Part shown: in pieces, positions 785 through 60,509 of the stretch
Layout of the letters: each line of letters opens with the position of its first letter
How positions within the stretch are numbered: position 1 is the first letter of the stretch
Notes under the pieces: model-generated
Databases searched by the model: none
What the model saw: the letters and a program-made list of their open reading frames with translations, nothing else
What the model was told of the DNA's origin: nothing
Made by a program: the position numbers and the translations under genes
Assembly: GCA_019155205.2 (NCBI GenBank)
Contig: JAHNZQ020000001.1
Coordinates: forward strand, 426,962-490,961
Direction of reading: 5' to 3'
DNA: 64,000 nucleotides
DNA from: Gracilaria vermiculophylla
Lineage: Eukaryota > Rhodophyta > Florideophyceae > Gracilariales > Gracilariaceae

Positions 785-3700
785 ATGAGTCAAATTTCTA
801 TGTTTTTTTTAAATGTATCAAATGGTATTACCAAGTTTATTCTATTAAATGTTAATAGAATAAAGACAGTATTACCAGTAAATTTACCAAGAGTAAATAA
901 AAATTATCTTATTGACATTTTTGATAATCATCTTATTCATTATAGTTCTCCTATTTCTTTAACGTATGCTTGAAGCTTCGGATCTTTAGCAGGTATATGT
1001 TTGATAATCCAAATGTTATCAGGTATTTTTTTAGCAATGCATTATACTCCACATATTGATCTAGCGTTTAGTAGTGTAGAATACGTAATGCGAGACGTGA
1101 ACAACGGCTGATTAATACGTTACATACATGCTAATGGTGCTTCCATGTTTTTCATAGTAGTATATTCTCATATTGCAAGAGGATTATATTATGGTTCTTA
1201 CATGGCCCCAAGAGAACTATTATGATGTTCTGGAGTAATTATTTTTTTATTAATGATGGGAACAGCTTTTACTGGATATGTTTTACCATGAGGTCAAATG
1301 AGCTTTTGAGGAGCAACTGTAATTACAAGTATGGTAACCGCTATTCCAGTCGCAGGTAAATATATAGTACAATGACTTTGAGGAGGTTACACAGTAGATA
1401 ATCCTACTCTAAATAGATTTTTTAGTATTCACTTTTTATTACCTTTTTTAATTGCAGGTTTAAGTTTAATTCATTTAGCACTTCTACATAAAAAAGGCTC
1501 AAATAATCCAGTGGGTTCAGATACCGGTATTGATGATATACCATTTTATCCCTACTTTGTTTCGAAAGATATCTTTGCGTTTTGTTCTTTTTTAATTTTT
1601 TTTGCTACTTTTGTTTTTTATTTTCCAAACACTTTGAATCATCCAGACAATTATATTCCAGCTGATCCATTAGAAACTCCAGCTCACGTGGTACCTGAAT
1701 GATATGAACGGGAAGTTTTATCGCGCGCTATCAGAGTAGAAATATTTTTTTTTTGTTTCTCAAACGTACTGTCTTTAGCTACAAAAGTTTTACGTTTAGT
1801 TACTCAACTTCTTATTATGCTTAGTGATACTATAACTTTGCTAATTATAGAGTTATATCATTCGGTGGAATCCCTGCTTAAGAAGTTTTTAATATTGATC
1901 ACTTGTAGAGTGAGAGCTCGTTTTGTTTTAAAAAGGTGTAGCTCAGACATTTTGACTTGTCAATTCTTTTGTAATACTCATTTTGTTTTTCTATTTAAAT
2001 TTATGTTAACTTCTCTTTACAAAAAATTCCTGTTCAAAATCGCATGATTAACGGATTCGAGTACGGAGTTCAGATATGTAGCATTCATGCAAATTTTTCT
2101 TTTACACAGAAAAATATCGCCTCAAAGAAGCAAGTGGAGAATAATATTTTTTTAGATGAAGCGTTTGTAGATAAGCCCTTTTTAGTAAGGAAGTACGTCA
2201 TTAGCTATGGCTCCGCCTTGCTGAAATTGCGAAGAAAATGCAATGGAGTTTCTCCGGCGTGTTTTCTAATGGACTCTTTTGTAAACACTAAAAGTTTATC
2301 TCGAGAATTTTCTTCTGCGGTAGAAATAGAGTCAGAACGTTTAAAACGTTCAATTTTAGAAGATTTGAAAAGTGACAACTGGCCCACCGATTGCCTGATA
2401 AAACGTAAGGGTATAAATAATTACGTTCAAAATGTGCAAAATCAAATTTTACGTTGCAAAAGAGAGCAACGACTTGATTTTATAGTTTCTCATGTTTTCG
2501 ATATTAGAAATCGAATATTTTCAATTGATAAAGTTTCGAGTGAATCCAAGAGCAGTAGTTATTTTCAAGTCGGTTATAGCGATTTTAGTCGAAAGTCTGA
2601 TAAATTTGTTTTGTTAAAACAAACTAAGTTAATTAATCTTTCGAAATTGCCCCCATGCAAAGTAGTCATGGTTGAAATACCTAAAGCTAATGGAGGTAAA
2701 AGATCACTTGGTATAAGTATGCCTGCGGACAAGGTTTTACAACGTATGTTTTTAAATTTTTTAGACGTGCTTATTGAAGAGGTGTTAAAACCTGAAGTTT
2801 TTGCTTATCGTAAAGGGCGTGATGCCAGAATGGCTGTCGCCAGTGTTTATGCCAAACTAAATCAAGCTAAACATATTGAGCAAATGTGCTTGTGTTCTGT
2901 TGACATTGAAAAATGTTTTGATAATTTTTTTCACCACCAAATTTTGGAACAATATCCTTTCCCTAAAAAGTACCGTTTTCTACTTTTACGCTGGTTAACG
3001 CCTAATATTCTAGACGAAAATCGCGATTTTAAAAATTTAGGTAAAGTTAATCGGGGAGTTCTTCAAGGTTCTATTTTAAGCCCAAGTATTGCAAACTTAT
3101 TACTTTCTAATGCTTTTCCTGAAAACATTTTAAAAGAAAGAAGAGAAGACAGACGAAAAGTATGGGCAGATATTTTTTCTTATGCAGATGATATCATATT
3201 AATTGCAAATAATCAAGCAATTTTTTACCGTCATTTGGCCAAATTAAGAAAAAATTTAAAAAGAATTGGTTTGTCACTGAACGATAAAAAAACAAAATCT
3301 TTTGTGTGTATAAAATCCAAAGTAAAATTTCAGTTTTTAGGTTTTGAGTTTTTAATTATGACAAGAGATCAACTCAAACGAAGTCCTATACTTTCCAACA
3401 TGAAAAATCTTTATTCTTTGAAAAAAGGGAATAAGGGCTTTGGCATTATACTTAGACCTAGCTCAGAGAAAGTTAAAGACATAAAAAAACGATTAAAAGC
3501 AACCATAAAAAGAATTCTTCACCAGCCTCGTAATGAAATTTACAAATCTTTTCAACAAATCAATTCTGTGTTATTAGGCTGGGGGTCCTATTATTATTTT
3601 AGCCAAGGATGTATCTATGGAAAAAGGGTTGATAATTATGTCTTTAAATATTTAAGAAAAACTTTGGTTAAAAAATTTCGATATAAAGGTTTGTTAAGAC

Positions 3701-4703
3701 CAAAGTGGGTAGTATACAATTTTTTTGGTTTAGGTAAACTAAACCCAAATGGTAAAAAATGGCAACCTCGTGCGTTGCAGTATGTTAAAAATTCATCTAA
3801 AATAGCTAAGTATGTTTACATCTGGTATTGTCAAGATACCTTTTTTAGGCTATCAATAACTTCATTTCTTTTAGATTCTAAAATGCGTAAACAAAATTAC
3901 TATGCCTTTCAAGATAGTTTTAAAAAAAGTATAAGTGAGTTGTTTATCAAACGGTTAAAATCTGATTTAAAAGTGAAGTTGCATGATGAGCAAAATGGTT
4001 TATGTTTAGTTTGTAAAGAGCAGATGGATGATAAGCTTCTTCTGTCCCGTTCATCTAAGTTGCATATTCATCAATTAGTGTCACGTAGTGTATCAAATAA
4101 GATTAACTTGAATAAAAAATCTTATGAGTCTCGTAAAAATAAAGTACTTTTGCATGAGAATTGTCATTTGGTGCTTCATAAAAGCAATTTATTTCAAGAC
4201 TCTTACTTATTACGCATGTTGGTGCCAGAAAAACCCATGATTTCGTAATAATATTTTCTCTTTTTTTTTACTCGATTAGTTATAACAATCCATAGGGAGC
4301 TGTATGCATTGCAAGGTGCTCGTACAGTTCTGGTCAGAGGAAATAAGGCCTAATAAGTCTTTATACTCACTGACAGTTTTTACCTTATTATGCAATTTTA
4401 AGAAGCATCCCTCACAAAGCTGGTGGTATTGTAGCTATGGTTGGTGCTATCTTAGTTTTTTTAGTTATTCCATTTTCTAATACATCTGATGTGCGTAATA
4501 CCACTTTTAGACCTGTATTTAAATTTTGTTTTTGATTTTTCATAGCAGACTTTATCGTCTTAACATGAGTAGGTCAAAAACCAGTTCGAAATAGCTTTAT
4601 TTTATTAGGTCAAATTGCTACATTTTACTATTTTGCATTTTTTCTAATATTAATTCCAATGATTGGAATTATTGAAACTAAATTAGTACGATTTTACAAA
4701 TAA
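785..4703 (+). CDS. cob: cytochrome b, two exons
   Basis: Cytochrome b is the membrane core of complex III and carries the two b hemes and the quinol sites. Exons are 785-1705 and 4377-4703, joining in phase inside the conserved PEWYFLP motif; TGA encodes the Trp of PEW. Visible motifs include [35 protein letters not shown] and, after the intron, [14 protein letters not shown]. The amino end has about 30 residues more than usual before the conserved LID..HLI..SSP segment; no other ATG lies nearer, so this start is kept. Gene length is otherwise normal. A group II intron with an intact ORF splits it. The apparent stop codons are all TGA. Confidence 0.95.
1706..4376 (+). mobile_element. group II intron in cob
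   Basis: The boundaries come from restoring the conserved cytochrome b reading frame. Domain V is clear at 4297-4330: a 34-base hairpin with the AGC triad near its 5' side and paired arms GAGCTGTA/ACAGTTC. The 5' end reads GAACGG rather than the usual GTGYG, and the 3' end reads CTGACAG, so both splice sites are atypical and could be off by a few bases. It holds the 734-residue ORF at 2044-4248. Confidence 0.85.
2044..4248 (+). CDS. cob intron reverse transcriptase/maturase with HNH endonuclease
   Basis: The 734-residue intron-encoded protein has RT fingers and palm with a preserved active site YADD near residue 380. A maturase (X) domain with [10 protein letters not shown] follows near residue 515, and an HNH nuclease region with CLVC and a paired C..H..H pattern covers about residues 653-715. 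It should splice its own intron and support retrohoming.
Every Trp is TGG, unlike host genes, and the ORF is uninterrupted, so it looks young. Its start overlaps the end of a frame that runs on from cob exon 1 (ATGA at 2044-2047). Its RT layout resembles the cox1 intron 3 and 4 proteins more than those of cox1 introns 1 and 2. Confidence 0.9.
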   Translation: MINGFEYGVQICSIHANFSFTQKNIASKKQVENNIFLDEAFVDKPFLVRKYVISYGSALLKLRRKCNGVSPACFLMDSFVNTKSLSREFSSAVEIESERLKRSILEDLKSDNWPTDCLIKRKGINNYVQNVQNQILRCKREQRLDFIVSHVFDIRNRIFSIDKVSSESKSSSYFQVGYSDFSRKSDKFVLLKQTKLINLSKLPPCKVVMVEIPKANGGKRSLGISMPADKVLQRMFLNFLDVLIEEVLKPEVFAYRKGRDARMAVASVYAKLNQAKHIEQMCLCSVDIEKCFDNFFHHQILEQYPFPKKYRFLLLRWLTPNILDENRDFKNLGKVNRGVLQGSILSPSIANLLLSNAFPENILKERREDRRKVWADIFSYADDIILIANNQAIFYRHLAKLRKNLKRIGLSLNDKKTKSFVCIKSKVKFQFLGFEFLIMTRDQLKRSPILSNMKNLYSLKKGNKGFGIILRPSSEKVKDIKKRLKATIKRILHQPRNEIYKSFQQINSVLLGWGSYYYFSQGCIYGKRVDNYVFKYLRKTLVKKFRYKGLLRPKWVVYNFFGLGKLNPNGKKWQPRALQYVKNSSKIAKYVYIWYCQDTFFRLSITSFLLDSKMRKQNYYAFQDSFKKSISELFIKRLKSDLKVKLHDEQNGLCLVCKEQMDDKLLLSRSSKLHIHQLVSRSVSNKINLNKKSYESRKNKVLLHENCHLVLHKSNLFQDSYLLRMLVPEKPMIS

Positions 4704-4961: not shown

Positions 4962-7900
4962 ATGTATTTACTATTAATTTTTTTATCAATTATCGGTTCT
5001 TGTCTAGCTGGTTTTTTCGGCAGATATTTAGGATCTAATGGGTCTGCAATTTTAACAACTAGTTGTTTATTCATATCTTTTTTACTTTCACTTTTAGCTT
5101 TTTACGAGGTAGGTTTAGGGCGTTGTTTTGTTTATATTAAGCTTTCTACTTGGATAAGCTCAGAAGTATTACATGTGGATTGAGGGTTTATGTTTGATAG
5201 TTTAACAGTATCTATGTGTGTAGTTGTTACATTTATTTCATTTTTAGTGCATTTATATTCAACAGAATACATGTCTCATGATCCACATTTACCTAGATTT
5301 ATGTCTTATTTATCTTTATTTACTTTTTTTATGCTTATTCTTATTAGTGCGGATAATTTTTTACAAATGTTTGTTGGTTGAGAAGGAGTAGGTTTATGTT
5401 CTTATCTATTAATTAATTTTTGATTTACAAGAATTCAAGCTAATAAAGCTGCTATAAAAGCAATGATTTTAAATAGAATCGGAGATTTTGGTTTACTTAT
5501 AGCAATTCTTCTTATTTTTATTAATTATAAAGCTGTTGATTATAGTACAGTTGCAGTGATAACACCTTTTTTTAAGACTACTACAATTAGTTTTTTAAAC
5601 TTTAAAATAAATTTATTAAACACTATTAGTTTGTTTATGTTTATTGGAGCTGTAGGTAAATCTGCTCAATTAACATTGCATACTTGATTACCAGACGCAA
5701 TGGAAGGTCCAACACCTGTATCTGCATTAATTCATGCGGCTACAATGGTTACAGCGGGAGTTTTTCTAATAACTAGAAGTTCTTTTATCTATGAACATAC
5801 TCCATATATTTTAGAATATGTAGTAATTATAGGAGTTTTAACATCTTTTTTTGCTGCAACAACTGGTTTACTTCAAAATGATTTAAAAAGAGTCATAGCC
5901 TATTCTACATGTAGTCAACTAGGTTATATGGTATTTGCATGTGGCTTGTCAAATTACTCTGTTGGTTTTTTTCATCTAACAAACCATGCTTTTTTCAAAG
6001 CTTTACTTTTTTTAGGAGCAGGTTCAGTAATACATGCAGTGAATGATGAACAAGATATGCGAAAAATGGGAGGATTAAAAAATCTAGTGCCTTTTACTTA
6101 TAGTATGATAGTTATTGGATCTTTAGCATTAATCGGTTTTCCTTTCCTAACTGGTTTTTACTCTAAAGATTTAATTTTAGAGATATCTTATAGTAAATAT
6201 AATTCACTAGGAATTTTCAGTTATGGTTTAGGTACTTTAGGAGCTTTTCTAACAGCTTTCTATTCTATGAGACTAAGTTATTTAACATTTTTATCCAAAC
6301 CTAATGGGTATAAACAAGTTATTTGTTTCGCCTATGATTCAGGACCTCAAATTTGCTTTGCTTTAGGTTGTCTAGCAATTCCAAGTATTTTAATAGGTTA
6401 TTTAACTAAAGATATGATTGTAGGAATTGGTAGTTCGTTTTTCGGAACAGCAATATATGTAAGCTTACAAAATTTTAATCTTTTCGACGCCGAGTTTATA
6501 GATGTATTTTACAAAACTTTGCCTGTTAATTTAAGTTTGGTAGGTTTTTTTTCTGCTTTTTTATTTTACATTTTTAAGTCTCGGTTTTTATTCATTTTAA
6601 AAACATCGACAGTAGGTAAAAAAATTTATTACTTCCTAAATCGAAAATGGTTAATTGATAAGATATACGCAGAGTTTTTAGGTCAATTTTTTTTTAAATT
6701 TGGTTATTCAACGAGTTACAAAGTGCGAGCGAACAGTAATTGAAACGGTTTCCGGAAAGAAATCAAAAAAAAGTGAGTACATTTTCTAAAAGCATTGATA
6801 AACTTAAGAATTTTAGATTCTAACTTTAGGAACAACTCGATTCGAGGATATTCAATCCTTTCATTTTTATCTTCAATTTTATTTTTGAAAAAAAGGGGTA
6901 AATGTAAATGAATTATTTCATTTTTATTACATGACACAAATAGAAATATTCTATTCTATAAGTTAAATCGACAAAAATCATCACCTTTCAATTGCGAGTC
7001 TAGTATTAGGTCTCATAATAAATGTTACCTTAAGGATAAATTTACTAAAAAATCTTATGAAGTTTTGAATGTAAATTTGGTTTTTATTTCTTTTAATAAA
7101 CTTAATACTTATAAGAATAAATTTTTTTCCACGGATGTTTATCCGTTAAAAAATAAATTTAAAAAAGAAACCCAAAAATTTGAAGATATATTTAATCTTG
7201 TATGTTCCATTAAAAATTTGCGTAAAGCTTATTATGAAATCAGAGATAAGCCAAATAACTTAAATTGACAAAACAATCATACCAAAATTCTAACAAATTT
7301 GGAATTTAATTGATTTTTGAGAATATCAAACAAACTTAATTTTGGAGTTCACAAATTTAAAAATAAAAAATTATTTAACATAAATAACAAAAAATTTTTA
7401 ATTATTGAAAGTTTCTGTGAAAAAATTATTCAACGAGTTATTTTTCAAGTTTTACGACAAATTTATGAAGGAATTAGTGTTTGAGAACAAGTAGAATATA
7501 AAATATTCACAAGTTTTAATGACTTTTCTTTCAATGGCAATTCAAAACGTGTTAAATTGAAAAAAAACAAAAAAATATATGAAATAAAAAAATGAATTTT
7601 AAAACCTGTCTTCCGTTATAATTTTTTTGGTTGTCGATATAATAATTCTATTTATTCGACTTTAAAAGTGATTAAAAAAACTTGATTTCCTGTTACATGG
7701 TTTTGATCTCTAGATTTTGTTAAAATTCTCAATAAAATTAATCAGGACAAACTTATTTCTAAAATTGAAAAGAAGATAAATGATTCAAAATTTATTCAAG
7801 AACTTCGTAAATTGTTGCAACATAACATTAGTGAGTTTGCTTATAAATATTCAAACATATTAAAAAATAACGCCTTTTTTTTTCTTCTGTTAAATATTTA

Positions 7901-9716
7901 TTTATTTTCTTTAGACAATTATATTTGTAAATTACAGACTAAATTAATTGAAAAAAATATATTTCACTTAAAATCTTATGAAAATAATTCAAAAAAGTTC
8001 AAAAAAAAAGCTAATATTAAAAATTTAAGTGTAAATATTGTACCAAAGCAAACGGTTAAAATCTATTATTCAAGATACGCTGATAATATATTATTTGGCT
8101 TTTTGATGAATAAATCATTAGCAAAAAAAATTACAAATAAGATTCAAAACTTCATTAAATTAAACTTAAATTATGAAAAGTCAAGTACAAAATCAAAATT
8201 AATTCATGGTATTTCAAAACCAGTTACATTTTTAAACTTTGAAATTAGTTTATATCCTTTTAAGTATAGTTATAGACCTCAACAGTTAATTAAATTTTAT
8301 AAGTTTAAAGCTGAGTTGCAAAAAAAAAAAATAAATGAGTCAAAAAAATATTTAAAAATGCAAAAACAAATACTTTTAAAATTTTATGAAAAATTTAATC
8401 AGTCTTCTATTATTAGTAATTATATTTCAAAAAAAAAAGTAAAGGCTCATTTAATTCCAATTCATTGAGTTAAAACTAAAATGATTCGCAGCTTAAAAAA
8501 CAGCTTAGCAAACATTAAAGCCAAACAATGATTTAATCCGTTAATGTTTGAAGAAAAAAATATTAACTTAAATAACATCTTGGCATTAGTAGAACAAAAA
8601 AATTTGAACATTTTAAAAAATGTTACCGAAAAATGAGTAAAACACGCTCAAAATTTAGCCAATCAAGAAAATGTTTTGGAATTAAGAACGGTTTCTGAAT
8701 TATTCTTTTCTACAAGTTTTGTTAAAGCTAGGGAAATGTACTTTAAAGAACTTAAAATTATTTCTTCCAAAAATTTTAGTAAAAAAATAACAAAAAATAT
8801 TATTAAAAACATCGCACAATACAAAACAAAAAAAAAATTTATACGAGAAATTAATTCTAATTCTCGTCCCATTAGAATTCTATTTTCTAAAAAATATCTT
8901 ATAAACAAATTTAGACTTTTCGGTATTATCCATAAAACTAACTTTAATCCTACAAATTTTAAGTCTTTAATTTTTTTGAAAGATCAAGATATTATCAATT
9001 GATACATATTAAAAGCAAAAAGTATTTGAAATTATTATAAGTGTTCGGAAAATATTCGAGACGTTAAAAAAGTCTTGGACTGAATGTTACGGTATGCTCT
9101 TTTTAGTACGTTAGCTAGTAAACATAAACTAAGTATTCGAAAATGTATCCAAAAACATTCAATGTCTCCGAATTTCTATCACTTTTATAAAGTCAATGAC
9201 AAAATTAGATCAATTTTACTAGTACAATATCCTAGTTTAAAATGAATAAATAACAAAAGTAAAATATTTAACAGTAATTTTTTAACTTTTTCAAAACTAG
9301 AAAAAATTTATAGACTATAACTGATTTCATAAATTTAAAAATAATGAAATACTTGTTTTAGAATTCAATCCCAAATTGGGTTTTTTATTTAAAAAAATAA
9401 AAAAAGCCGTGTGATTAGAAATAATCACGCACGGTTTTATAGGCAGGTTTATCTCTGACCTAACAAGATTGATCGAGGTATTTTTGAAATTTTAGGTCCA
9501 ACCGGTTTATCTCTTTCTGTTTCAAAAATCAGTTCTAACATTCACAATATGCAAACCAATTACATTTACCACTATAGTTTAATTATATTAATCGCAATGA
9601 CTTTATTTTTTGGTTTTTTAGAAATATGATTATTTTTTGAGTTTTTCATTGATTATCGTTTATGAATTTTAATTTTCCTACTCAATTTTTTTTATTATGA
9701 ATTTTACAAAAAATAA
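4962..9716 (+). CDS. nad5: NADH dehydrogenase subunit 5, two exons
   Basis: This is a proton-pumping membrane subunit of complex I. Exon 1 is 4962-6722 and exon 2 is 9465-9716, giving about 670 residues, the family norm. Antiporter-like motifs are visible: [39 protein letters not shown], and a lateral-helix tail [12 protein letters not shown] is used for several conserved Trp codons, which is why the frame appears broken under the standard code. Exon 1 ends at codon AAA just before a textbook GTGCG intron start; exon 2 restores [14 protein letters not shown]. The exon 1 frame stays open far into the intron as a maturase ORF. Confidence 0.95.
6723..9320 (+). CDS. degenerate matR-like maturase in frame with nad5 exon 1
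   Basis: With TGA as Trp, a single frame runs from nad5 exon 1 through the splice site to a TAA at 9318-9320, about 865 intron-encoded residues. RT-derived blocks are recognisable: WSLDFVKI with DSKFIQEL, then [10 protein letters not shown], then [10 protein letters not shown] at 8073-8102, where the normal second catalytic Asp of YADD is Asn. The carboxy part ([19 protein letters not shown], then [15 protein letters not shown]) matches the maturase domain of plant mitochondrial matR. There is no HNH. Composition is very AT-rich and Lys/Asn-rich. Likely a splicing factor only, with RT lost. It probably needs cleavage from a Nad5 fusion or an internal start; a TTG near 7065 is one candidate. 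Confidence 0.8.
6723..9464 (+). mobile_element. group II intron in nad5
   Basis: Starts GTGCGAGC and ends CTAAC, both canonical. Domain V is at about 9404-9438 with arms AAGCCGTGTG and CGCACGGTTT around a GAAA loop. It contains a matR-like ORF continuous with exon 1. Confidence 0.93.
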
Positions 9717-9804: not shown

Positions 9805-12261
9805 TTTAAAAAGTTATTATAAGCATTAAATGAATTCCTAAACATTAAAAACATATAACAGACATTTGACAATGAAAAATTATAACGAGCAAATAAAATT
9901 TGCTGTGAACTATAACTTTCTGTAATTAGAAAACTAAACTTTGTAATATTAAAGTTTATTTTAATTTCGAATATTAAAATAATAAAATGTAGTGAATTGA
10001 ACCATCTAAGTAACTATTTATAGAAATCAAACGAGATATTGTAAGTAGTGGCGAGCGAACATAATAAAGGTTGTAAATTTTTTTAATTTTTAGTTTAATA
10101 TTTTGTTAGCCATAGAAGAAAGCCCTGTAAAGCAACAAAGTTAAAAATTTAAATTTAAGTAAAGCGGTACAAGTCATGTGTTGCTTGAATTTTGGGGGAC
10201 CATCCTCACAATCTAAAAGTTTTAATGTTTTATAGTGTATTAGTACTGTGAAGGAAAGGTGAAAAAGAATTTTCGAAAATTGAAAAGATAATGAAATTTA
10301 ATGCTATCAAGCAGTTTTAGCTTTAAAAAAAAAGTAATAGCTTACCTTTTGAATAAGGGATCAACAAGTTTATTTTGGTAGCGAGCTTAATCTATTACGA
10401 ATAGGCGAAAAGAAATTGAGTTTTAAAATGCTATTAGTTTCCAAAATAAGACCCGAAATTAAGTGATCTAACCATGAACAGGTTGAATTTCAAATGGTAA
10501 CATTTATTGGAGGACCGAACTCGTGTATGTGGAAAAATACTGGGATGATTTGTGGTTAGGAGTGAAAGGCTAATCAAACTTAAAGATAGCTGGTTTTCTG
10601 CGAAATCTATTTAAGTAGAGTAATTAAAATTCTTTAATTTTAGGTAGAGCTCTTAATAAGTTATGGGGATGAAAATCTTACTGAGTTTATTAAAACTTCG
10701 AATAAAAATTAAAAGACTTTAATTAAACAGACTATGAATGCTAAGATTCTTAGTCAAGAGGGAAACAGCCCAAACTAATAGTTAAGGTCCTTAAAAATAG
10801 TTAAGTGAAAAAAATGTAATAAAATGCTGACAATCTGTAGATAGGCTTAGAACCAGCCATTCTTTAAAAAGTGCGTAACAGTTTCCTGATTTAGTTTTTT
10901 TGCATTAAAAATGTTTAGGGACTTAAACTATTTTACCGAAACTGTAGATTTAATTTAAAAATGGTAGCAGAACGTTCTGTAAATTGATGAAAGTTTATAG
11001 AAATATAAATTGGAAAGATCAGAATTGAAAATGTTGATATGAGTAACAACAAACAATGTTTAAATCATTGTCATCTTAAGTCTTAGGTTTTCAAAACAAG
11101 GTTAATCCGTTTTGATAAAAATTAATCGGTCTCTAAGAATGTAGACGAAAGTTTAGTTTAATGAGAATACATTATTTTAATATGACAAAATATGAATATA
11201 ATTTTTATTTAATAGTTAAAATAAAAGTTTTATAGTATTTTCAAGAAAAAGTATAAAATATAAAACCGTACTTAAACCAACACAGGTAGACAAGTTTAGT
11301 AAACTAAGATGTTTGGAAGAAATATTTTAAAGGAACTCGGCAAAATGACTCCGTAACTTTTGGAGAAGGAGTGACTTTTATTTGGGCAACCAAATAAAGT
11401 TGACACAAAATTAAGGACAGCGACTGTTTACTAAAAACATAGGTCTCTGCTAATTTGTAAAAAGATGTATTGAGGCTGACGCCTGCCCAGTGTTGTAAAA
11501 TTAAAAAAAAAAGTTATTTAGCTTTTTTTTGAACTCTCAATAAACGGCGGCTGTAACCTTGACAGTCCAAAGGTAGCGAAATTCCTTGGCATTTAATTGG
11601 TGTCCTGCACGAATGGCGTAACGACTGTCCTACTGTCTCTAAAATATATCCAGTGAAATTGAATTTTCCGTGAAGATGCGGAATACAAGCGGCTAGACGG
11701 AAAGACCCTATACACCTTTACTATAATTATATATTGTAATAAAATTTATTATGTATAGAATAAGTGGGAGTTTATTGATTTTAATCAATATAGATAACGT
11801 TTATGAAAGTAAATTGTTAAAACATAATATGAAATACCACTCTTAAAATTTTTTATTACTAATTTTTTAAAACAGTTTATAATGGGTAGTTTGACTGGGG
11901 CGGTCGCCTACAAAAGAGTAACGGAGGCGTACAAAGGTAAATTTGAATTGAATATATTATCAATTCGTAAGCGCAATAGTATATATTTGCTTATTTGTAA
12001 GATTGACAAATCAAACAAGGACGAAAGTCGGTTATAGTGATCCGATGACTCTGAATGGAAAAGATCATCGCTCAACGAATAAAAGGTACGTTAGGGATAA
12101 CAGGCTAATCATCCCCTAGAGACCCTATCGACGGGTTGGCTTGGCACCTCGATGTTGGATTATCGTATCCTGGAGCTGAAAATGGTTCCAAGGGTTTGGC
12201 TGTTCGCCAAGAAAGACGGTACATGATCTGAGTTTAGAACGTTGTAAAACAGTTTGGTCCC

Positions 12262-14456
12262 GTGCGATTTGTTGTATATAAAGAATTAATGAAAACGATT
12301 CGTAGATATACCTGCCTCTTCTGAGGTAGAACTAAATTTTGATTGCGTATTAATAATACGCTCACTTGTTAATTGGTGGAAAGCATATAACCGGCCTACT
12401 TGATAGGTCCGCCCGGTGCTTAGACTTAGCAACTCTAAAATCCAAGCAGGGCATAAAAGCGTGTAAAGGTGTCTGATCATAGAGGTATAACCCTTACAAA
12501 TCGCGAGCAAGTGAATCATACTCCCGTTAGTGTTGAAAGTTAACTCGTTAACGATCACTCTATATGGGTGGGGTAGAGAACACTCTTATGGCTTTTGCCA
12601 ATGAAATGCTGATCTTGCATGACACCTTAATATAAGGAGAGAGAACAAAGTACTGTCTGATGTGTCGTTAACTGTTTGTAGTGGTCTCTAAAATCAGTTT
12701 TCGGATTGATTGCTCATTTTAAATGGGCTACACTATGTTCAAAAAATTATCGAACAAAGTCATATAAGTGCGCAAGAAGGAGCCGCTTCGTCGCAATTAA
12801 CACTTTGACTTCGGCATAAAGGTGCACCCTAAAGTTTACATTTAAAGCAAAATTTGGAACGAAGTAACTTAGAATTATTTAGCTGTGGCTACACAGTAGG
12901 ACAATTGCTAGCTAAGGTTAAAACTTAGAGGGTACTTGTGACCCTTCTGCCTGATTATAGGTATGATAGTTTTAAGAGGGACGATGTAGGAAGCTAATGC
13001 TTATCTGGAACTGACTAGACTAGTGTTTGAAAAGAACGGGGGGTAATGCCCGAGATATGCAGACTTACGTCGCACATGTTTTAATCTGTATTATGAAGAT
13101 ATATAAATTGAATGCTAAATTTCGTGTATACGGCACAGAAAGGTATATAAGTCATGCTGTATTTAAAACTAATTGTTCATGCCCTGAAAGCTTCGTGTGG
13201 AAAGATGTGGACTGGAAGAAAATACAGTTACGACTAAATAATTTACAATATAAGATTTTTGCTGCTAAAAAGGAAAATAATATGAAAAAAGTCAGAAAAC
13301 TTCAAAAAACGATTTTAAATTCACACGATTTTAAAAAGTTAGCGGTTCGAAAAGTCACACAATTAAACCGTGGCAAAAACACTGCGGGTGTAGACAACAT
13401 AAAAAAGTTGAACGAAAAGCAATACATTTCATTAGGTATGCCGATGATTTAGTAATCATGCACAGGGATCTTGAAGTTGTTAAATCCTGTCGCACAATAC
13501 TAAATAGGTTTCTAGCAGAACGAGGTCTTGAATTAAGTGAAGCTAAAACTAAAATTGTTCACACCCGATTACCTTTTGAGTCGCAAAAACCTGGCTTTGA
13601 CTTTTTGGGGTTTACGATAAAACATTTTGATACGTTCCACAGGAGTTCTCTTACTTCCCATAAAGAACGAATTGGATACAGACTACTTACTTACCCTAGT
13701 AAAAACAGTAGAAATAAACACTTTCGTAAGATCGATGGTTTCTTAAAGAAATTTAAGACGGCAAAGCAATCATATATAATTAGCAAGTTAAATCCTATGA
13801 TTATTGGATGGGTGAATTACTTTAAATTCTCTCATATCCTGACTACTAATATAGCTGCGTCTATGGACCACATATTATTTCAAAAACTGCTATACTGGGC
13901 AAAACGTAAGCTTCAAGTACCTAATAAACGCATAGGGTACCGGAAATTCTGGCATAGAGTTAATGGCAAACTCCAACTCTCTTATACTAAACCTAGCAAA
14001 GAGACTCTAGCAATCGGCGGATATCGTGAGATATCTAAAGGCTATAGTATCGCAAAGTATGTTAAGATAAAAGGAGAGGTTTCGGTTTATAACGGAAATA
14101 TTTATTATTGGTCTAGAAGATCTATCACACCATCTTTGAAAACTAAAATGAAAACAAGATTATTAAAGAGACAAGAAGATAAGTGCGCTATATGCAATCT
14201 TAAATTCTTCCCCGGCGATATCATTGAAACCGACCATATTAAACCCATAGCAAAAGGTGGTAAACACATCATATCTAATTTACAATTAGTACATGCGTCA
14301 TCTTGTCATGATTATAAAAAGTATTAACAAGAATTTTGAAACAGTGCAAACCGTAATAGGTTTCCAGATTATAGTGTGAGGAGCCGTGTGCGCTGAAAGG
14401 CGCAAGCACGGTTTTGGAGGGAGTTGGTCTGGGGTAACTCGGACTTTCGACCCTAC
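12262..14456 (+). mobile_element. group II intron in rnl
   Basis: Starts GTGCG after GGTCCC and ends CCTAC before TATCTACCG, matching the bacterial 23S sequence GGTCCCTATCTGCCG. Domain V at 14381-14414 is a near-perfect consensus hairpin (GAGCCGTGTGCG, GAAA loop, GCACGGTTT). One C at the junction is ambiguous. It contains a deleted RT/HNH ORF. Confidence 0.93.
13027..14327 (+). pseudogene. rnl intron maturase with internal RT deletion and frame break
   Basis: Two adjoining frames, 13027-13452 and 13458-14327, make up one former protein. The first ends shortly after the amino-terminal RT0 motif and NRGKNTAGVD. The second frame is already open upstream and reads FIRYADDLVIMH across 13428-13460. 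It continues with the maturase domain (LNPMIIGWVNYFKF) and an HNH domain with CAIC, ETDHIKPI and LQLVH.
Most of the RT palm (RT1 to RT4, roughly 180-200 residues) is missing at the junction. RT activity must be gone; the maturase and nuclease parts are intact. Trp is TGG throughout, as in the other young elements. Confidence 0.85.
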
Positions 14457-31042: not shown

Positions 31043-43355
<12,313 letters not shown>

Positions 43356-43727
43356 AGAACCATACGTTTATAAAAACTACCTTAAAAACATATAGAATAA
43401 AACGAGTTCTTTAACAAAAAATAAAAAATATGATATATAATACTTCTGGGTTGAAAAAATGCCTAGAAAAATCCCATAAAATTATTTACATACCAAACAA
43501 AACTCAAATTATTAAAACTGCTTAACTCTAGAATAATAGGCTAACTGAAGAAAATACACAATAATAACAAATTTTGAAAACATTAAAAAACAAGTTGTAG
43601 TTTATCGGAAAACTACTTAACCATTTTATCTTGAATTATTGAGAGTATGAAAGAAAATAAAAACAAAATAAGTTTATGTTTTATTTAAAATTTATTAAGT
43701 TTTACCTGATTTAATTGAGAAAAAAGT
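43356..43727 (+). other. AT-rich spacer after cox1
   Basis: I see no gene, tRNA or group II domain V in this stretch. It leads into the free-standing maturase-like ORF at 43728. Confidence 0.6.
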
Positions 43728-44828
43728 ATGGAACAAAAATTAATTAAGATTAATGTTAAATTTGCTCGTAAAAATAATAATAATTATATAAAAAAATTTT
43801 TAAAACAAAATTTGTCAAATCAAAATTTAAAGATTGGAACACATTCTGTCCATTTTAATAAATTGTGTCAACTAGCGTACAAATTTCAAAATACTGTTTT
43901 AAATAAATATTTTAATGTTATAAAAATGATTTCTTCCGACTGTGAGAAAAAATTATTTAATACTTTATGAAACGATAGAACTCATATTTTTGTATGAATT
44001 CACAGTATCAATTTTAATTTAGTGTTAAATATTATTAAAAATCATTTCGACAAAAACGCAAAAAGTCTTTTTAAAAAATTCTCCAAATATTCTTATTTCA
44101 ATTGTTTTACGGATCCGAAATATTTTCAAATTATATCGAATTTTTATTTTCATTATTTCGGTTTGTATCTTCAAAATAATATCTTGCGGAAAGTAAAATA
44201 TAAAAAAAGAATGGGTGTAAAAAATGTTGAAATGAAATATAATATTTTAGTGTTACAAAACATTTGAAATAAAACGAAGCAAGACGAATCCAATATTAAA
44301 TATGATCTCATTCAATTCAATCACAAAATCTGATTACGAATTATTTTAAACTTTAAACAAGATAGGATTATGCAGACAAAAATAAAACATTTTTTCTTAA
44401 AAAGACTTTTTTTAATTTACAAGACTATCAAAATTTACACAAACTACAATTGAAATGAACTTTTTTTCAATAAAAAATATAATTTGAGTAGAAAAACAAA
44501 AAACCAAAATTATGCCATGTTAAAAAATTTTATTGAAATTCTTTTTTTACATGCTATAGCCAAAAAATATGCAAGATTAAAAAAAAATGGTAAACCTATT
44601 AAAGCTACTGTAAATAAAACACTTGTAACGTTTGATGATACAGTTATTATAAGACACTTTCGTAATATTATTAATAAAATAATTAGATATCATTTGAAAT
44701 ATATTTTGTACTATAGCGTTCGTTTTCTTATTTTTGTTTTTCGTAAAGCGTGCGCTTTAACTTTATCTTACAAATATCAAACGAAAACTTCAGCTGCTGG
44801 TTTTAAAAAATTTGAAAACTTCATATAA
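43728..44828 (+). CDS. free-standing degenerate maturase-like ORF 1
   Basis: With TGA as Trp this is one frame of 366 codons. A middle block FYFHYFGLYLQNN is a worn form of the RT motif that normally reads NIYLHELD, and the carboxy end (IIRHFRNIINKIIRYHLKY, then FRKACALTLSYKYQT and AGFKKF) is a good maturase X domain of the cox1-intron-1 type. No YADD and no HNH. No intron boundaries, exons or domain V surround it, so it is not obviously inside an intron. Very AT- and Lys-rich. Suggested role: splicing in trans; alternatively a relic. Confidence 0.65.
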
Positions 44829-45011
44829 TACTTATAAGATCCACAAAACTTAAATTCTTTTTAAACCCTCATATCAAACTTATGATTTACGCATTTAAAC
44901 AGAATAAATACCGCTTTCCATTTTTGTCCAACGACGCTTTGATTATGTTCGTATCATTAAAACAGCGCTTATAAAAATCTTATATATTTATATTTTTAAT
45001 AATGAATTCTT

Positions 45012-46601
45012 TTGTTTTATTATCAAATTAATTGAACAGAAAATAAATTTATTAAAATAAAAAAAACCGTAAGAGATTGTTTTAGAAAGCATGTTAAAAA
45101 AATTTATCTAGGAAGAAATATAAAACAAAAATTAAACAAGACTACTTTTGGTCTAATGCCTTATCTTATAAAGAAAAAATTAATTGAATTATTTGAAACG
45201 AACAAAAAAAATCCTTTAAAAAAGAATAATAATTTAATAGAAATCATCTCGAATCTATATTTAGTCGAAAATGTTTATTATAGATTAAAACATCGATGAA
45301 TTGATTCTTCTACGAAAATAAAAATTAGAATTCCAAATAAAATAGATCTAAAAATATTAGAACGTTTGAGTAAAAAAATAAAAACAGGGAATTATACCTG
45401 GAATAATTATAAAAAAGTAAAAAATAACATTATTTTTGATTTTAAGGACAAAATAATAGAAAAACTTATTGAAATAGTATTACGTATAATATACAAGCCA
45501 AATTTTCAAGCTTTGGCATATAATCAAAGTTTCAATTCTCAAAAGCGTCATTACTTGATCATGAATCGGCTTAACATTCAAAAACACCATTGAACATTTG
45601 CATTTAAAAACAAAAATTTAAGAAATAATTGAGACTTAAATAGTAAAATATTCATGAAAGTTTTAAGGAAAAAAATCAATGATTTTAAATTTTTAAAAAT
45701 TGTAAGACGTTTATTGGAAAATGATCTTTTACTAAAAAATAAAATGGTAAATTTTATTTTTTATAATATTTACATCCATGAATTTGATTTATATCTTTCT
45801 AAAAAGATGAAAAGTCTTCGTAATGAAAATCTCAACGAAAACTTTACAGCAATTAAACTAAGCGAAGGATGCTTTATGACAAATCGCTATAAAAGAAGAG
45901 AAAGATATCGATGGAAAGAAAAAATGAGAAAAGGATTCCGATTTACAATTAAAATATTTCGAAGATTAAAAAACTCTATAAAATTCAATAAGAAAAAACA
46001 AATTGGTTTTGAAACTCAAAAAAAATGAAAAGAAAGTCCAAAAGTTATATACGACAGATCCAACCATTATTGAGTGATGTTTACGAACTACTGTTTATAT
46101 ACCATGAAAATAGTAAAAAGGAGATTAATTGGTTGATTTAAGAAAAATTTAAAAATGGATGTAAATAAAATGTTGTTAATTAATTTAATTAAAAATAAAT
46201 TAAACTATTTAGGATTTACTATTTGCGTGAGTCCTTCGAAAATAAAAACTATTTTCTACAACAATAAAATCAAAGCTCGAAGGAAAAAAAATATTATCAT
46301 ATTTATCGGAATAGACCATAAATACCTCAAAAATAAATTAATTAGAAAAAAAATAATAACGCATAAATACAGACCAAATTTTATAGATAATTATCTTAAT
46401 TTAAAACCATTGCAAATTATTTTAAAGTTTAAACAAAAACTAAAAATGCTTCTCAATTATTATCATAACACGGTTACATGCCTTCGCGAATTAAATTATT
46501 ATTACTACGTTTATAAATTTTCGTGTTTAAAAACTTTAGCTCGTAAAACAAAGAAAACTTTTTACTCTATATTTAAAAAAGAATTTTTAAAACCTTTTTA
46601 A
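45012..46601 (+). CDS. free-standing degenerate maturase-like ORF 2
   Basis: A second frame of about 529 codons with TGA as Trp; the first ATG is at 45156 and a TTG is at 45012. RT remnants are visible: FIFYNIYIHEFDLYLSKK, a YADD site replaced by a WVMFTNY-like segment near 46070, and LNYLGFTICVSPSKIKT. The carboxy maturase part shows LKMLLNYYHN and FSCLKTLARKTKKTF. No HNH. No intron structure was found around it. Same AT-rich, Lys-rich style as the ORF before it, from which it is separated by about 180 bases. Like that ORF it probably has no RT activity. Confidence 0.65.
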
Positions 46602-47800: not shown

Positions 47801-47802
47801 TT

Positions 47803-54600: not shown

Positions 54601-54603
54601 GAT

Positions 54604-55308: not shown

Positions 55309-56453
55309 TTAAATTTTATTAGTTATTTTTTTTTTAATCGGTTCTAAATTAATAGAATTTTTAAGTCTAAAAAAGTTTAGTCAATTGTCATTGCTTACAA
55401 AACCATACGTGATTATACTTTAATCATATGGCTTCTTTTACTTATATACAAAAATATTTGCTTGATATGCTATGATGTAAAACGGAAACTTCATTTATCT
55501 AAAGTTATTTTAAGTAAAAATAGAATTTGTGTTTGAAAAATCTTATAAATCCATCCCTGAAGTAATTTTTTTGATGTAAAACTTCTCGTATAACTTCTCA
55601 TTCGTGGGTAATATAGTTTTTAGATGTCTAATTTAGTCTACAAAATACTTGCAATTACATATTAGAATTGTAATAAATTGATATTTTTTCTCACTTCTAG
55701 TGTTGAATTTACTTATTTATTAAAACTTAGACCTAAAACCTTTGAGTATATCTATGCTTTTAAAAAGTTTATAGTTTTATTTGATTTCTCTAGAAAAAAC
55801 CTTTTAATGATAATTCACCCGCACCACTACGATAATAGCCAAACCAATCGCTGATTCTGTTGCAGCTATTGTTAAAATGAATAGTATAAAGATTTGTCCT
55901 ATTATATCGTCTAAATATATGGAAAAAGTTGCAAAGTTTAAATTAATAGCTAGAAGTAAAAGTTCAATAGACATTATAATAATTAGAATGTTTTTTCGAT
56001 TTAAGACAATTCCTATTAAACCAATAAAATGAAATTGGATTAATTATTGTATAATAATAAATCTACTCTCAAACTGTACTTGAAATTTTAATTTCATACA
56101 GCTTTTTTATCTTTATTTGAAAAGATTTCTTTTGATCTGAATTGTTTTCTAATTTTTAATCAATTATAACAATTTAAATATATTAATAATTATAAAATGT
56201 TTTAGGTAAATGTAATGTATTTTATCAATTAAGTATTTTCTTCATTAATTGTTAATAATTTTTTTACTTTGAATCAGAGTATCATAACTTTACATTTATG
56301 TTACCTTTTACATTTTTTTTTAATAGACATGTTATATTTCCTGTAGATTTTTATTTTTTTTTTGTCTAGCGTTTTCTGAAAAAGGTTAATCTATTCATTT
56401 TAAATAAAAATTTATTTTGATATATTTATTTGTTTCACACGAAAACAATACAA
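55309..56453 (-). CDS. nad4L: NADH dehydrogenase subunit 4L, three exons
   Basis: A small three-helix complex I subunit. Exon 2 (55825-56042) holds [27 protein letters not shown] and the helix with the conserved Glu in [16 protein letters not shown]. Exon 3 (55309-55374) gives [16 protein letters not shown]. Both introns between are supported by domain V hairpins. Exon 1 is inferred as only 13 bases (56441-56453) with a TTG start before a GTGTG intron start. The sum, 297 bases or 98 residues, is the normal family length, which supports the model. Exon 1 remains the weakest part. Confidence 0.82.
55375..55824 (-). mobile_element. ORF-less group II intron 2 of nad4L
   Basis: Starts GTGCGGG and ends CTAAAC. 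Domain V lies at 55399-55434 on the minus strand (GAAGCCATATGAT..ATCACGTATGGTTTT). 450 bases, no ORF. Confidence 0.88.
56043..56440 (-). mobile_element. ORF-less group II intron 1 of nad4L
   Basis: Domain V at 56071-56104 (AAGCTGTATGAAAT..ATTTCAAGTACAGTTT) is convincing. The 3' splice site was set by the exon 2 frame. The 5' site (GTGTG) is an inference. About 400 bases, no ORF. Confidence 0.78.
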
Positions 56454-56573: not shown

Positions 56574-56587
56574 TAAAAATTTAACAT

Positions 56588-59500
56588 TTAAAGAGCAAAT
56601 AATAATAAGAAAACAATCATTAAAGCAAAAAGTGCAATTGCTTCTGTTAAAGCATTAAATTTGAGAGTAATTTGTCTACGCTCTATTTTTAAAACCACAC
56701 ATGATATTTCATATCATGTGGCTTTTCATGTAATTTTTATCGATTGAAGCGATTTCGATAGTTTTTTACTAACCAATTTCGTATTTTTGGGGGACAGTTA
56801 GGGTTAGTCGTTTGAAAATTGGAACATCATACTGCCTCTTCTATTGTTAAACTTGGATACTCATATTTCATCTGATTGGATAAGTCTCCTTCTAATTCTA
56901 AAAGTAAACTTACTTTGGCAATATCATCAGCAACATATCTTGCAAACTGCCTAATTGTTATATTTTTTTTAACACTTTGCATTACACTCTTGAACTCTTT
57001 TGCAGATAATGTATCATTACCGTATGAAAATTTGACTGAGTTTGTAGCATTTTTATTGGACCCTCCTTTTTGCATTAATCCAGTAATTAAAATTAACGCT
57101 TCTTCTTTGGAACTTAATTTAAATTTTTCTTTTATTTCTTCTATAATTTTGTTAATTACACTTTCGTCTATAAAAGTAATTTTTTTATAATTTTTTTTTA
57201 TGTTTGTCGCTATTTGTTGTATTTTGGTTAAATCGTATTTTGACTGTATAATGAGAGTTTGAAGCACTATTTTTTATTCGAAAAAAAAACAATTTCTTTT
57301 GACAAAGTTCTTTTAGCATTTTTTTAATTAAAAATTTTAACTAACAACAATAATTTAAAAAAATTTTATTCCTGATTTTAAAATGAATTATTATAATATT
57401 GATTTTTTTAATAAATATTAAAAACTAACCGTGGATCTAAGGCAGTTGTACTTAAATTTCTTTTTATAGGAAATTAAATATTTTTAATTTATTTTTCAAT
57501 ATTAATATAATTTAAAGTATATTTTCATTTAATGAATCTTTATTAAAGTTCTTTATGGTTATGCTATTTTTCCTTAAATTTTTATTTCTTGTCGATTCGA
57601 TTCTTTTTTAGGTTAAACCATTTGTAAATTTTTTTAATTAATTCGCACAAATCCTAAAATTGCCATTTTGAATAACTCATCTTTTAATGATGGGTTTCTA
57701 GAGATACCTAGTACTAAAGCACCGAATAATGTGTCTCAATATTTTACGATTGGACTATAAAACTTAACATGATTATTTCTTATCATTAAGCTTCACTCAA
57801 AACTAAAAATTTTTTGATACAACAAAATTGCTATATTTTTATGTTATATTTATTATGAACTGATTTAAAAACAACACTGATATTTTTAAATGATAAATTA
57901 TTTGTAGTATTCTTATTTTTGATTTGAAAACTCTTGGGTCAGTTGTAGATAACATTTTTTTGAATAAAACTAATTTTATAATTTTTTTTAAAAGGATGTA
58001 ACGTATTTATGTTTTCCCCATAGTTTTTGAAAATTTTATTTAAACTAGGAATTTTATATTTCTGTTTTAAAGTACTTGCTAGTGAAAGTCTAATATAGTA
58101 TTGTACAATAAACTTGACTTTAAAAAAGTTATCACAAAAAGCAAAATAATTTAATATATTTTTAGCTAAGCCTACAAAAAAAGTGATGATTTTATAGTCA
58201 TCCAACAATAAAATCGACTTTTTTGTGTCTACTTTCATTTTCGTTCTTTGTACGATTCCATTTTCTTTGAGTTTTGAATATATAAATTTTATATCCGCGT
58301 TTATCATAATGCTATAAAAAAGTGGATTTTTTTTTAAAAATTTATTTTCTATGAACGTTTTATTTTTAGAGTTTATTTTTAAATATCTTATTGTGTCTAC
58401 TAAAAAGTTTGTTTTATTTTTATCATAAATACTCTTAAATTTGATCTGTAATGGTAGTTTTCCCGGCAAAAGAGTGGAAAGAGAAAAAGCTTTATTAAAA
58501 ATAAATCTTAAATTTTTTGCTACATATGAATATTTGTATCTGCTCTCACAAAACCAATTATCTTTATATTTTAAAACTAATTTTATAAGATTTTCTCTTT
58601 TTGAAACACGTTTTTGGTTAATAATTTCATTTTTATGCTTCAATAAAATATGATTTTGTTTTTTAAAAGAATTTCTAGTTGTAAAATCTGAATTTATTTG
58701 TAAAAATATATGTTTGACAAAATTTTTTAAACCTTTTCTTCTATTTCACCTAAGGCTATCTAAAAATATTTTTTTAGTTACTTTAACATTATTATCTTTT
58801 AGAAAATGAATTAATTTTAGAAAGTTTCTTGGATTTGTTTTAAAGTTGTTTCAAGCATTATTCATCATTTGTTTAAAAAATTTGTTTTTTTCAACCTTTC
58901 GTCGGTTTTTGATATTGCGTTTAATTCTAGAATTATATTCTAATACTCTGTTTTTTCTGGGTGATAAATAAGTCTTTTTAACATTATAAATTTTACATGA
59001 TAAAAAATTTACAGAATTGTTACATATATTAATAAGTTTTACTTTTTTTTTGTGAATTTTTAAAAACAATTGTTTAGACATAAAATCTATAATCTTTTGT
59101 TTATATTGAAGTGCCACTTCTTTTTTGCCTTTTATACCCAAAATAAATTTATTTAAGTATCTAATGTATTTAATTTTGATAAAACTAATCTCATGTTGAT
59201 TTATAAGTTTTTTAACATAATTATCTAAAGACGTCATATAAATATTTAAAAATAAACATGACAATGTTTCATTTTTGAGAAAACTTTTTTTACGAGTAAC
59301 ACTTTTATTATAATCTCAAAAATTGTTATTGAACATATGATTTAACAATAAAAATAGTGCTTTGTCATTAATATTTTGTTTTAATAATTGGATTATTCTA
59401 TATTTGTGCAAAGAATCAAATGGTTCTTTTAAATTAGATTTAATATATCAATTTATCCCAGACCATTTAAATTTTATTTCTCGTAGAGCAAGATGAGAGT

Positions 59501-60509
59501 TTTTATCTTCCTTAAAACCGTAAAAATATTCAGAAAAATAATTCAACTTATAACTATAAACTTCCAAAAAAACTATGTAAAGAGCTTTTTGTACAATAGT
59601 ATTACTAAAACAATTTATAATTAGCTTCTTATTTATTGTATTTTTAATCAAGTAGATTTGTTTAGAATAATCTCACTTGAAATTATTTTTTTTTAAATTT
59701 TCACTAAGATTCACAAATCAGTCTATGTTAATTTTTTTTAATATTATTTTATTAAGCAAATTCTCTAATATTATATGATTTTTTTTATTAATCATAGTTT
59801 TATAAACATAAATTAAAAATAAAGGCTCCGAAATGATGTTTTTTAATAGATTTTCATATTTAGAATTCTTTTTTTTTAAATTTTGTAAAATAAAGAAGAA
59901 TTTATACGATTCAAAATTATACACATTAATCTTTTTGAAAGTATCTGGGAAAAAATTTATTGACGTATTTTCTATAACTTTCACGTGGGCATTTTTTTTT
60001 TAAATAACTTTAAAAGATTTTAAAGTTTTTGTTCACAGATAATTTTTAGTAAAATGAGCTAAAACTAATTTTATAATTTGGAATCACATTTTTAATACAA
60101 ATTCTTTTTTTGTTTTCTCTTAAGATTAGACCTATGTAAAAGTAACACGAAATCTTTTAATGAAATATGATATAAATTTGGATTTAATATTATATTTGGC
60201 ACTTATTTGTATAAATAAACATTTTGTACGAAAAACGTTTCTATTTACTGTAAAATATACTTTGCTTAATTATTTATTATAAAATGACAAACTTTTCCTC
60301 TAAAAATTTTATTTATCATTATCACTCTCATTATTGAAGACCATAAAGCTGTTCCAAGTAATTTTGATTTATGATATTTTGGATTTTATCGACATATTAA
60401 TTAAAAATAAGTGTTCTTTTCACGCACCAGTACCTATTCCAACTCCTGCTCCTGCTAATCCAATTGTTGCTAAACCTGCTCCTATATATTTGGCTGCCTG
60501 TAATAACAT
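56588..60509 (-). CDS. atp9: ATP synthase subunit c, three exons
   Basis: The proteolipid of the Fo rotor ring, with two helices. Exon 1 is 60428-60509 ([20 protein letters not shown] then AGVGIGT), exon 2 is 57649-57728 ([20 protein letters not shown] then KMAILGF) and exon 3 is 56588-56653 ([21 protein letters not shown]). They sum to 75 residues, the normal size, with the essential Glu in ALTEAIALF. Exons 1 and 2 both end at a GTGCG intron start. So a gene of 228 coding bases is spread over 3.9 kb. It lies between rpl16 and trnK. Confidence 0.95.
56654..57648 (-). mobile_element. group II intron 2 of atp9 with a non-maturase ORF
   Basis: Starts GTGCG after GGATTT and ends TTTAAT. Domain V at 56691-56725 (AAGCCACATGATAT, GAAA, ATATCATGTGTGGTTTT) is very good. 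About 995 bases. Its only ORF ends 12 bases before domain V and is not a maturase. Confidence 0.92.
56737..57267 (-). CDS. unknown 176-residue protein in atp9 intron 2
   Basis: The frame starts [20 protein letters not shown] and continues past one TGA Trp at 56827 to a TAA at 56737-56739. Two Cys and a [15 protein letters not shown] segment lie near the end, and [15 protein letters not shown] lies near residues 104-118. Predicted mostly helical, soluble. It has no RT, maturase X, HNH or LAGLIDADG features. Composition is that of an ordinary protein, not of the Lys/Asn-rich decayed ORFs nearby. I do not recognise the family. Placement in domain IV is where group II introns carry their cargo. 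Confidence 0.7.
57729..60427 (-). mobile_element. group II intron 1 of atp9
   Basis: Starts GTGCGTG and ends ACACAT. Domain V at 57759-57793 (AAGCTTAATGATAA, GAAA, TAATCATGTTAAGTTTT). Carries a degenerate maturase ORF on the same strand. Confidence 0.92.
57831..59984 (-). CDS. degenerate maturase of atp9 intron 1
   Basis: One frame of 717 codons with TGA as Trp, starting at GTG and bounded upstream by a stop, so not fused to exon 1. RT remnants: [32 protein letters not shown], and the active site YADD changed to YLNK at 59148-59159. The maturase X domain is better kept: [18 protein letters not shown], then [18 protein letters not shown] and FKNYG. The amino part still shows DTIRYL-type motifs. 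There is no HNH. Its X domain is of the cox1-intron-1 type, not matR type. RT activity cannot remain; splicing help is likely. Confidence 0.78.

Follow-up and report, generated by a model that had tools for sequence, protein, structure and literature searches.

Locus and gene content

The window analysed here is a stretch of 64,000 nucleotides (positions 426962-490961) within a contig of 497,724 bases (JAHNZQ020000001.1) in an assembly deposited as Gracilaria vermiculophylla, and it carries mitochondrial genes densely interrupted by introns. The 9,962 bases fetched upstream of it are all N; downstream, another 6,763 bases follow before the contig ends. Because one tandem repeat occupies both the first and the last bases (window 1-234, and 6321-6763 of the 6,763-base stretch that follows the window), the 70,763 bases were treated as a single mitochondrial record, of which the window is the majority. 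In this record we found 16 introns in 11 genes, amounting to 28,974 bases, or 41% of its length. As judged from sequence, six of these introns probably entered recently from a standard-code source and overlie an older layer of ten, predicted to be confined to splicing and served by maturases whose reverse transcriptase (RT) is dead.

Tryptophan in the host genes is encoded 90 times by UGA and 10 times by UGG, counted over 28 host exon pieces rather than a full gene set. Further, nad11 is present as two adjacent open reading frames (ORFs), and a nad11 encoded in two parts is described as a trait of diatom mitogenomes in passages of PMC10778710. Both features fit a diatom mitogenome, an assignment made by traits and not by named diatom sequences. 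The exon reference was another, intron-poor mitogenome in the same file (C16; 36,999 of its 39,086 bases used). Nine of ten genes are unbroken in C16 at the window's intron sites, the judgement on rnl coming from an ORF match across its site; the cox1 gene of C16 has introns of its own.

Group II introns in eleven genes

A sequence-only reading of the window had placed about fifteen group II introns in ten genes, between 1706 and 60427, by restoring conserved products. Fifteen introns indeed stand, the first beginning at 1706 and the last ending at 60427 (Table 1), and joining their exons yields open frames, which for eight of the genes align with the C16 proteins. Single alignment blocks were obtained for cob (409 aligned amino acids, 82% identity), nad4 (490, 81%), cox3 (243, 72%), nad7 (395, 86%) and nad4L (109, 84%), two blocks for nad2 (525, 67%), and three each for nad5 (659, 72%) and atp9 (84, 94%). 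The cox1 exons join into a single 483-residue open frame, and the rnl intron was located from its flanks and its domain V (D5).

The D5 hairpin, with its AGC triad and bulge, lies near the 3' end of 13 of the 15 introns according to Rfam models, in agreement with the earlier claim that most of them are confirmed by this domain; it is also present in the trnL(UAG) intron described below. Eight matches to RF00029 exceed the gathering score. The permissive-filter search that yields all 13 (weakest E 0.19) finds ten through RF00029 and three, in atp9 i1, nad4 and cox3, through RF04356. The two remaining D5s are a degenerate one in nad2 (22.2 bits with filters off; an A.C at the position of the triad G.U and a 9-base loop) and one in cox1 i4 (12.6 bits) that keeps only the lower stem with its AGC. 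The Rfam matches at E<=1 included no family of group I introns. Across the 13 D5 rows, 98.9% of 182 cells are paired and 10 of 14 pairs have double-sided changes; the covariation score is 0.738, compared with a mean of 0.248 in 500 shuffles, none of which scored as high. The D5 model and the covariation thus support the assignment of the introns to group II.

A model built from these 13 D5s recovers its own training rows and one new site (E 1.2e-7), the next-best match in the 70,763 bases having an E of 0.39. With default filters and E<=10 it matches neither the nad2 nor the cox1 i4 D5. The new site belongs to a sixteenth intron (G+C 0.20), just past the window end, which splits the anticodon stem of trnL(UAG); ARAGORN detects this tRNA once the halves are joined and not before.

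In single minimum-free-energy folds of the 16 intron tails, a candidate domain VI, with a stem and an unpaired A at -6 to -9, is seen in 13, the A being located 3' of the stem in atp9 i2 and trnL. It is not seen in cox1 i3, cox1 i4 and nad4; the nad4 tail does form a stem when the finally chosen intron boundary is used. Ten of the 15 introns begin with GUGYG (rnl within 1 nt) and cox1 i2 with GUGCA, those of cob, nad7, cox1 i3 and cox1 i4 having other 5' ends, and all except cob and cox1 i4 end in AY (13/15); the boundaries were chosen partly by these motifs. At cob, the conserved PEWY is kept only with non-canonical ends; canonical ends would change the Tyr. There, the end of the 5' exon can pair near intron position ~150, which favours the boundary that keeps PEWY. 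The scan for pairings between intron- and exon-binding sites (IBS/EBS) gave many chance candidates elsewhere and was used only for weighing this boundary; it found no EBS1 candidate for nad5, cox1 i2, cox1 i3, atp9 i1 or the cob boundary at 1700. Finally, the adjacent cox1 introns i3 and i4 leave a micro-exon of only 6-9 nt. Thus, i3 probably splices ahead of i4, as the latter would otherwise lack its full 5' exon.

Two classes of intron

The introns divide by the tryptophan codons of their proteins. One set, which we term the young layer, consists of the cob, rnl and four cox1 introns, with five RT-intact proteins and one broken one (rnl, which lacks the RT middle). The six proteins together contain 0 UGA and 46 UGG codons (Fisher p 1.6e-28 against the host genes). 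Those of cob and cox1 i1-i4 have the RVT_1 and maturase domains and the YxDD motif of mobile-intron proteins, motif A having been checked by alignment only for cox1 i1 and i2. Setting aside the window's own cox1 i2, the closest relatives that the file offers for the proteins of cox1 i1, cox1 i3 and cob lie outside the window and are 31-34% identical. The other set, the old layer, comprises the ten introns of nad5, nad2, nad4, cox3, nad7, nad4L (two), atp9 (two) and trnL(UAG). The six old-type ORFs (nad5, cox3, atp9 i1, nad7 and two freestanding ones) have 65 UGA and 11 UGG codons, like the host genes (Fisher p 0.48). Whole-intron G+C follows the same split, at 0.32-0.37 for the young layer and 0.17-0.25 for the old.

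RT-dead maturases

Motif C residues are lost in the nad5, cox3 and atp9 i1 proteins and in both freestanding maturases, as is motif A in atp9 i1; according to Pfam, all five have domain X. The cox3 protein is a paralogue of that of nad5 (33% identity over 892 columns). The nad7 and atp9 i2 ORFs had no match to the maturase profile.

Queried with the three intronic maturases and their two first hits, a database of 5.8 billion proteins (7,992 candidates scored) returned five proteins, two of them already in the query. In the RT alignment, at least one catalytic Asp is missing from all eight rows besides cox1 i1 and i2 (from P0124, only that of motif A). The stretch between RT7 and domain X measures 193-259 residues in seven of these eight rows (193-229 in the three intronic maturases) and 78 in P0125, versus 31-33 in cox1 i1 and i2. 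A tree of 14 rows places the nine RT-dead ones on one side with support of 93/90; it includes the freestanding ORF at 45003 and leaves out that at 43689. We describe this RT-dead family, with its long stretch before X, from the present data.

One of the proteins found, P0123, is 42% identical to the atp9 i1 protein over 700 columns, with both frames open; 200 simple neutral simulations to 41% identity produced a mean of 38.2 stops and a minimum of 25. Identity between the two is 0.63 in domain X and 0.42 in the RT. Another protein, P0004, is a nad11 relative (75% identical). As P0123 and P0004 are each listed with two contigs, the longest of 13,511, they probably come from the same contigs. 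A third, P0001, is a putative reverse transcriptase listed under the red alga Erythrolobus coxiae that is RT-dead (WADN, motif A Asn) and, like the proteins here, has a long RT7-to-X stretch and domain X; its match to the nad5 protein (E 1.8e-16) is at an identity of only 24%.

The AlphaFold model of the nad5 protein has a mean predicted local distance difference test score of 55.5, with 70-89 in most RT-core and X blocks, and its best structural matches are group II intron RTs. The maturase profile matched LtrA at 2.2e-97. Because the alignments behind both include the two RT-intact cox1 proteins, these results speak to kinship rather than function. Run against IMG/VR, the maturase alignment picked up 34 loci.

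No D5 match was found by the 13-D5 model in the region of the freestanding maturase at 43689..44828, and the only match inside that at 45003..46601 is at chance level (13.9 bits, E 0.39). A split trnG as the home of these two genes was considered and rejected: trnG, present in C16, was not found anywhere in the record.

Kinship between introns

All 16 introns were compared in pairs, and pairs scoring >=30 were set against 200 shuffles each. The nad5 intron and the ORF-less nad4L i2 resemble each other at both ends: over the first 220 bases (z 11.2) and the last 115 (z 12.9), in each case with 0/200 shuffles as high. Two other 5'-end pairs had z of 3.5-3.9, values reached by 1/200 shuffles. The trnL intron is similar to atp9 i1 at the 3' end only (z 13.2, 0/200 shuffles), above the other D5-driven pairs (3.5-9.0) and below cox1 i1/i2 (22.3). 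From these sequence comparisons, some ORF-less introns look like trimmed relatives of maturase-bearing ones.

Feature coordinates and side observations

Table 1. Introns, intron proteins and freestanding maturases of the record. Layers are the putative ones of the text; Trp gives UGA:UGG codons.
Feature	Position	Strand	Description	Evidence
cob intron	1706..4376	+	young layer; 1700-4370 alternative (6 nt uncertainty)	D5 4297-4330; one-block cob when joined
cob intron protein	2044..4248	+	734 aa; RT with YADD, GIIM maturase domain; Trp 0:7
nad5 intron	6723..9464	+	old layer; GUGCG...AAC	D5 9404-9437; exon joining
nad5 RT-dead maturase	6726..9320	+	in frame with exon 1; motif C YADN; domain X; Trp 16:1
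rnl intron	12261..14456	+	young layer; boundary uncertain by 1 nt	flanks; D5 14381-14414
rnl intron protein, broken	13024..14327	+	N-terminal domain and late RT/GIIM/HNH, in two frames; Trp 0:6
nad2 intron	17323..17872	+	550 bp, no ORF	D5 17805-17841; exon joining
nad4 intron	19605..20080	+	476 bp, no ORF	D5 20016-20049; exon joining
cox3 intron	22597..25308	+	old layer	D5 25246-25279; exon joining
cox3 RT-dead maturase	22600..25152	+	in frame with exon 1; motif C FSNN; domain X; Trp 14:4
nad7 intron	27023..28821	+	old layer; non-canonical 5' end	D5 28749-28782; exon joining
nad7 intron ORF	27478..28704	+	408 aa, no family match; Trp 13:2
cox1 i1	31836..34265	+	young layer	D5 34172-34205; exon joining
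cox1 i1 protein	31872..34118	+	RT YVDD, domain X, HNH; Trp 0:7
cox1 i2	34353..36870	+	young layer	D5 36809-36842; exon joining
cox1 i2 protein	34448..36781	+	RT YVDD, domain X, HNH; Trp 0:7
cox1 i3	36915..39584	+	young layer; 5' end GGUCGAC	D5 39508-39541; exon joining
cox1 i3 protein	36945..39467	+	RT, GIIM maturase domain, HNH; Trp 0:13
cox1 micro-exon	39585..39593	+	CATATGTAT = His-Met-Tyr; 6-9 nt by boundary	restores WAH-HMY-TVGLD
cox1 i4	39594..42788	+	young layer	atypical D5 42727-42762
cox1 i4 protein	39588..42662	+	RT with YADD, GIIM maturase domain; Trp 0:6
Freestanding degenerate maturase	43689..44828	+	domain X; Trp 7:0
Freestanding degenerate maturase	45003..46601	+	domain X; Trp 8:2
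nad4L i2	55375..55824	-	450 bp, no ORF	D5 55400-55434; both ends like nad5 intron
nad4L i1	56029..56440	-	412 bp, no ORF	D5 56071-56104; exon joining
atp9 i2	56654..57648	-	178-aa ORF 56737-57273, Trp 1:1	D5 56692-56724
atp9 i1	57729..60427	-	old layer	D5 57760-57793; exon joining
atp9 i1 RT-dead maturase	57831..59999	-	motif A Asp->Asn, motif C YLNK, domain X; Trp 7:2
trnL(UAG) intron	66702-67160 (record)	-	459 bases, group II	13-D5 model E 1.2e-7

Several other features were observed. A G-rich 63-base unit occurs in two copies, 97% identical, at 392-529. Two elements are not clear tRNAs: a tRNA-like one at 16351-16414, directly after rns (29.2 bits), and a solitary T-arm-like motif at 759-775, near the cob start. 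Between trnV and trnN, the ORFs at 47448-48159 (-) and 48571-48972 (-) have no significant family match. Further group II D5 matches lie elsewhere on this contig, away from the mitochondrial record, at 17993, 90468 and 147050, possibly in plastid DNA. The fetched part of C16 has five D5 matches, of which three fall in cox1, one within the first part of nad11, and one between rpl16 and rps3.

Discussion

We propose that recent, standard-code introns in this mitogenome lie over an old layer that is restricted to splicing and has RT-dead maturases as its helpers, a reading that we consider probable on the sequence evidence. The young introns would have entered recently from a donor using the standard code, and they may remain mobile. 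The old introns would no longer move, and their splicing would take place in ribonucleoproteins. Each RT-dead maturase would act in cis on its own intron, and may act also in trans on similar ORF-less introns: the nad5 and cox3 proteins on nad4L i2, and the atp9 i1 protein on the trnL intron. The kinship of ORF-less introns to maturase-bearing ones provides the setting in which such trans action is expected. In bacteria, according to passages of PMC4424553, ORF-less introns nearly always adjoin related protein-bearing introns.

A number of observations weigh against this proposal. The nad5 and cox3 maturases retain the motif A Asp, so the death of their RT is a matter of motif C. The one-sided grouping of the RT-dead maturases in the tree may reflect attraction among their long branches. 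Similarity at the 3' end runs through D5 in many introns, which tempers the link between the trnL intron and atp9 i1. No likely helper was matched to the introns of nad2, nad4 and nad7, to nad4L i1 or to atp9 i2. The atp9 i2 ORF, with one UGA and one UGG, was excluded from the 65:11 count. Among the introns themselves, cox1 i4 is without a normal D5, the 5' ends of cob, nad7, cox1 i3, cox1 i4 and trnL are non-canonical, and exon-intron pairings were found for some introns only.

Also to be set against our proposal is that exclusive use of UGG could reflect selection for readability elsewhere rather than youth. If mobile introns are selected for a portable frame, the two layers could be equally old, and UGG-only usage in all six young-layer proteins is what such selection would leave. 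We nevertheless regard this explanation as unlikely: the layers differ also in whole-intron G+C and in RT integrity, and the broken rnl copy is UGG-only even though portability would bring it no gain. A different explanation is that all of the introns form one ordinary mobile set, that the RT-dead ORFs are decaying pseudogenes, and that the RNA splices unaided or is spliced by nuclear proteins. Decay of intron-encoded proteins is described as common in organelles (PMC4424553, in part), and here the rnl protein is broken and no maturase domain can be recognised in the nad7 ORF. Decay does not readily account for the six UGA-coded frames of 379-864 residues that are open despite a G+C of 20-24%, nor for the maintenance of the atp9 i1 frame in a relative at 42% identity, with conservation strongest in domain X. 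We therefore give this account a low probability, somewhat below that of selection for portability.

An assembly artefact, a chimera, or a nuclear copy of mitochondrial DNA must also be weighed, given the long N stretches in the contig that carries the record. Such an origin is highly improbable: both ends of the record carry the same tandem repeat, the 28 counted exon pieces are open under a single code, and a nad5 search of the readable parts of the file found no second near-identical copy, the next being 76% identical.

Beyond the proposal of two layers, it is possible, though we hold this doubtful, that the reading of UGA as Trp acts as a one-way gate. Group II introns written in the standard code could enter and be read. 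Resident copies that gained UGA codons would then be unreadable in a standard-code genome; they would lose RT activity and become fixed as a multi-protein splicing apparatus of the mitochondrion, acting in trans on ORF-less introns, one of them in an essential tRNA gene.

The density of introns had been called unusual for diatoms. It is unusual, in that Table 3 of PMC8987724 gives more than six introns for 2 of 68 diatom mitochondrial DNAs (mtDNAs); it is neither unprecedented nor a record, as those two are Psammoneis japonica, with 11, and Halamphora calidilacuna (MF997424), with 1 group I and 19 group II introns. The latter resembles the present record in its very many introns. It differs in having more of them, in cox1-3, nad7, cob, rnl and rns, with none listed in nad2, nad4, nad4L, nad5 or atp9. 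Introns in nad4, nad4L or atp9 are not listed in that table for any diatom, and our search of the open-access literature found none in diatom mitogenomes in these genes or in trnL(UAG). The same literature yielded no Trp-codon layering of group II introns. The title of a paper on Amicula reportedly claims the largest stramenopile mitogenome.

RT-dead organellar maturases, ORF-less introns and intron-rich algal mitogenomes are already known. MatK and other degenerate organellar maturases have likewise lost RT residues and kept domain X, and MatK binds several introns (both from passages of PMC4424553). Unlike MatK, the proteins described herein number three intronic and two freestanding RT-dead maturases in one mitogenome, beside RT-intact proteins. 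The mitogenome of Porphyridium purpureum is another intron-rich algal one, with 46 introns and 14 intron proteins (PMC8742464), but it belongs to a red alga, measures 129-132 kb and contains twintrons. For tRNA genes, the same source reports ten group II introns in the mtDNA of Chlorokybus atmophyticus, a member of another lineage; we found a single one here, in trnL(UAG). Among diatoms, Cocconeiopsis is described in PMC10778710, in part, as having an intron in a tRNA gene of its mitochondrion.

Within one genome, the count of Trp codons separates apparently recent introns from resident ones. The passage from a mobile to a splicing-only intron is thereby made visible on a single molecule, and it is testable in related algae. 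Such a transition has often been suggested as a stage in the origin of spliceosomal introns. Further, the record offers concrete enzyme-RNA candidates for trans maturase action: the nad5 and cox3 maturases with nad4L i2, and the atp9 i1 maturase with the trnL intron.

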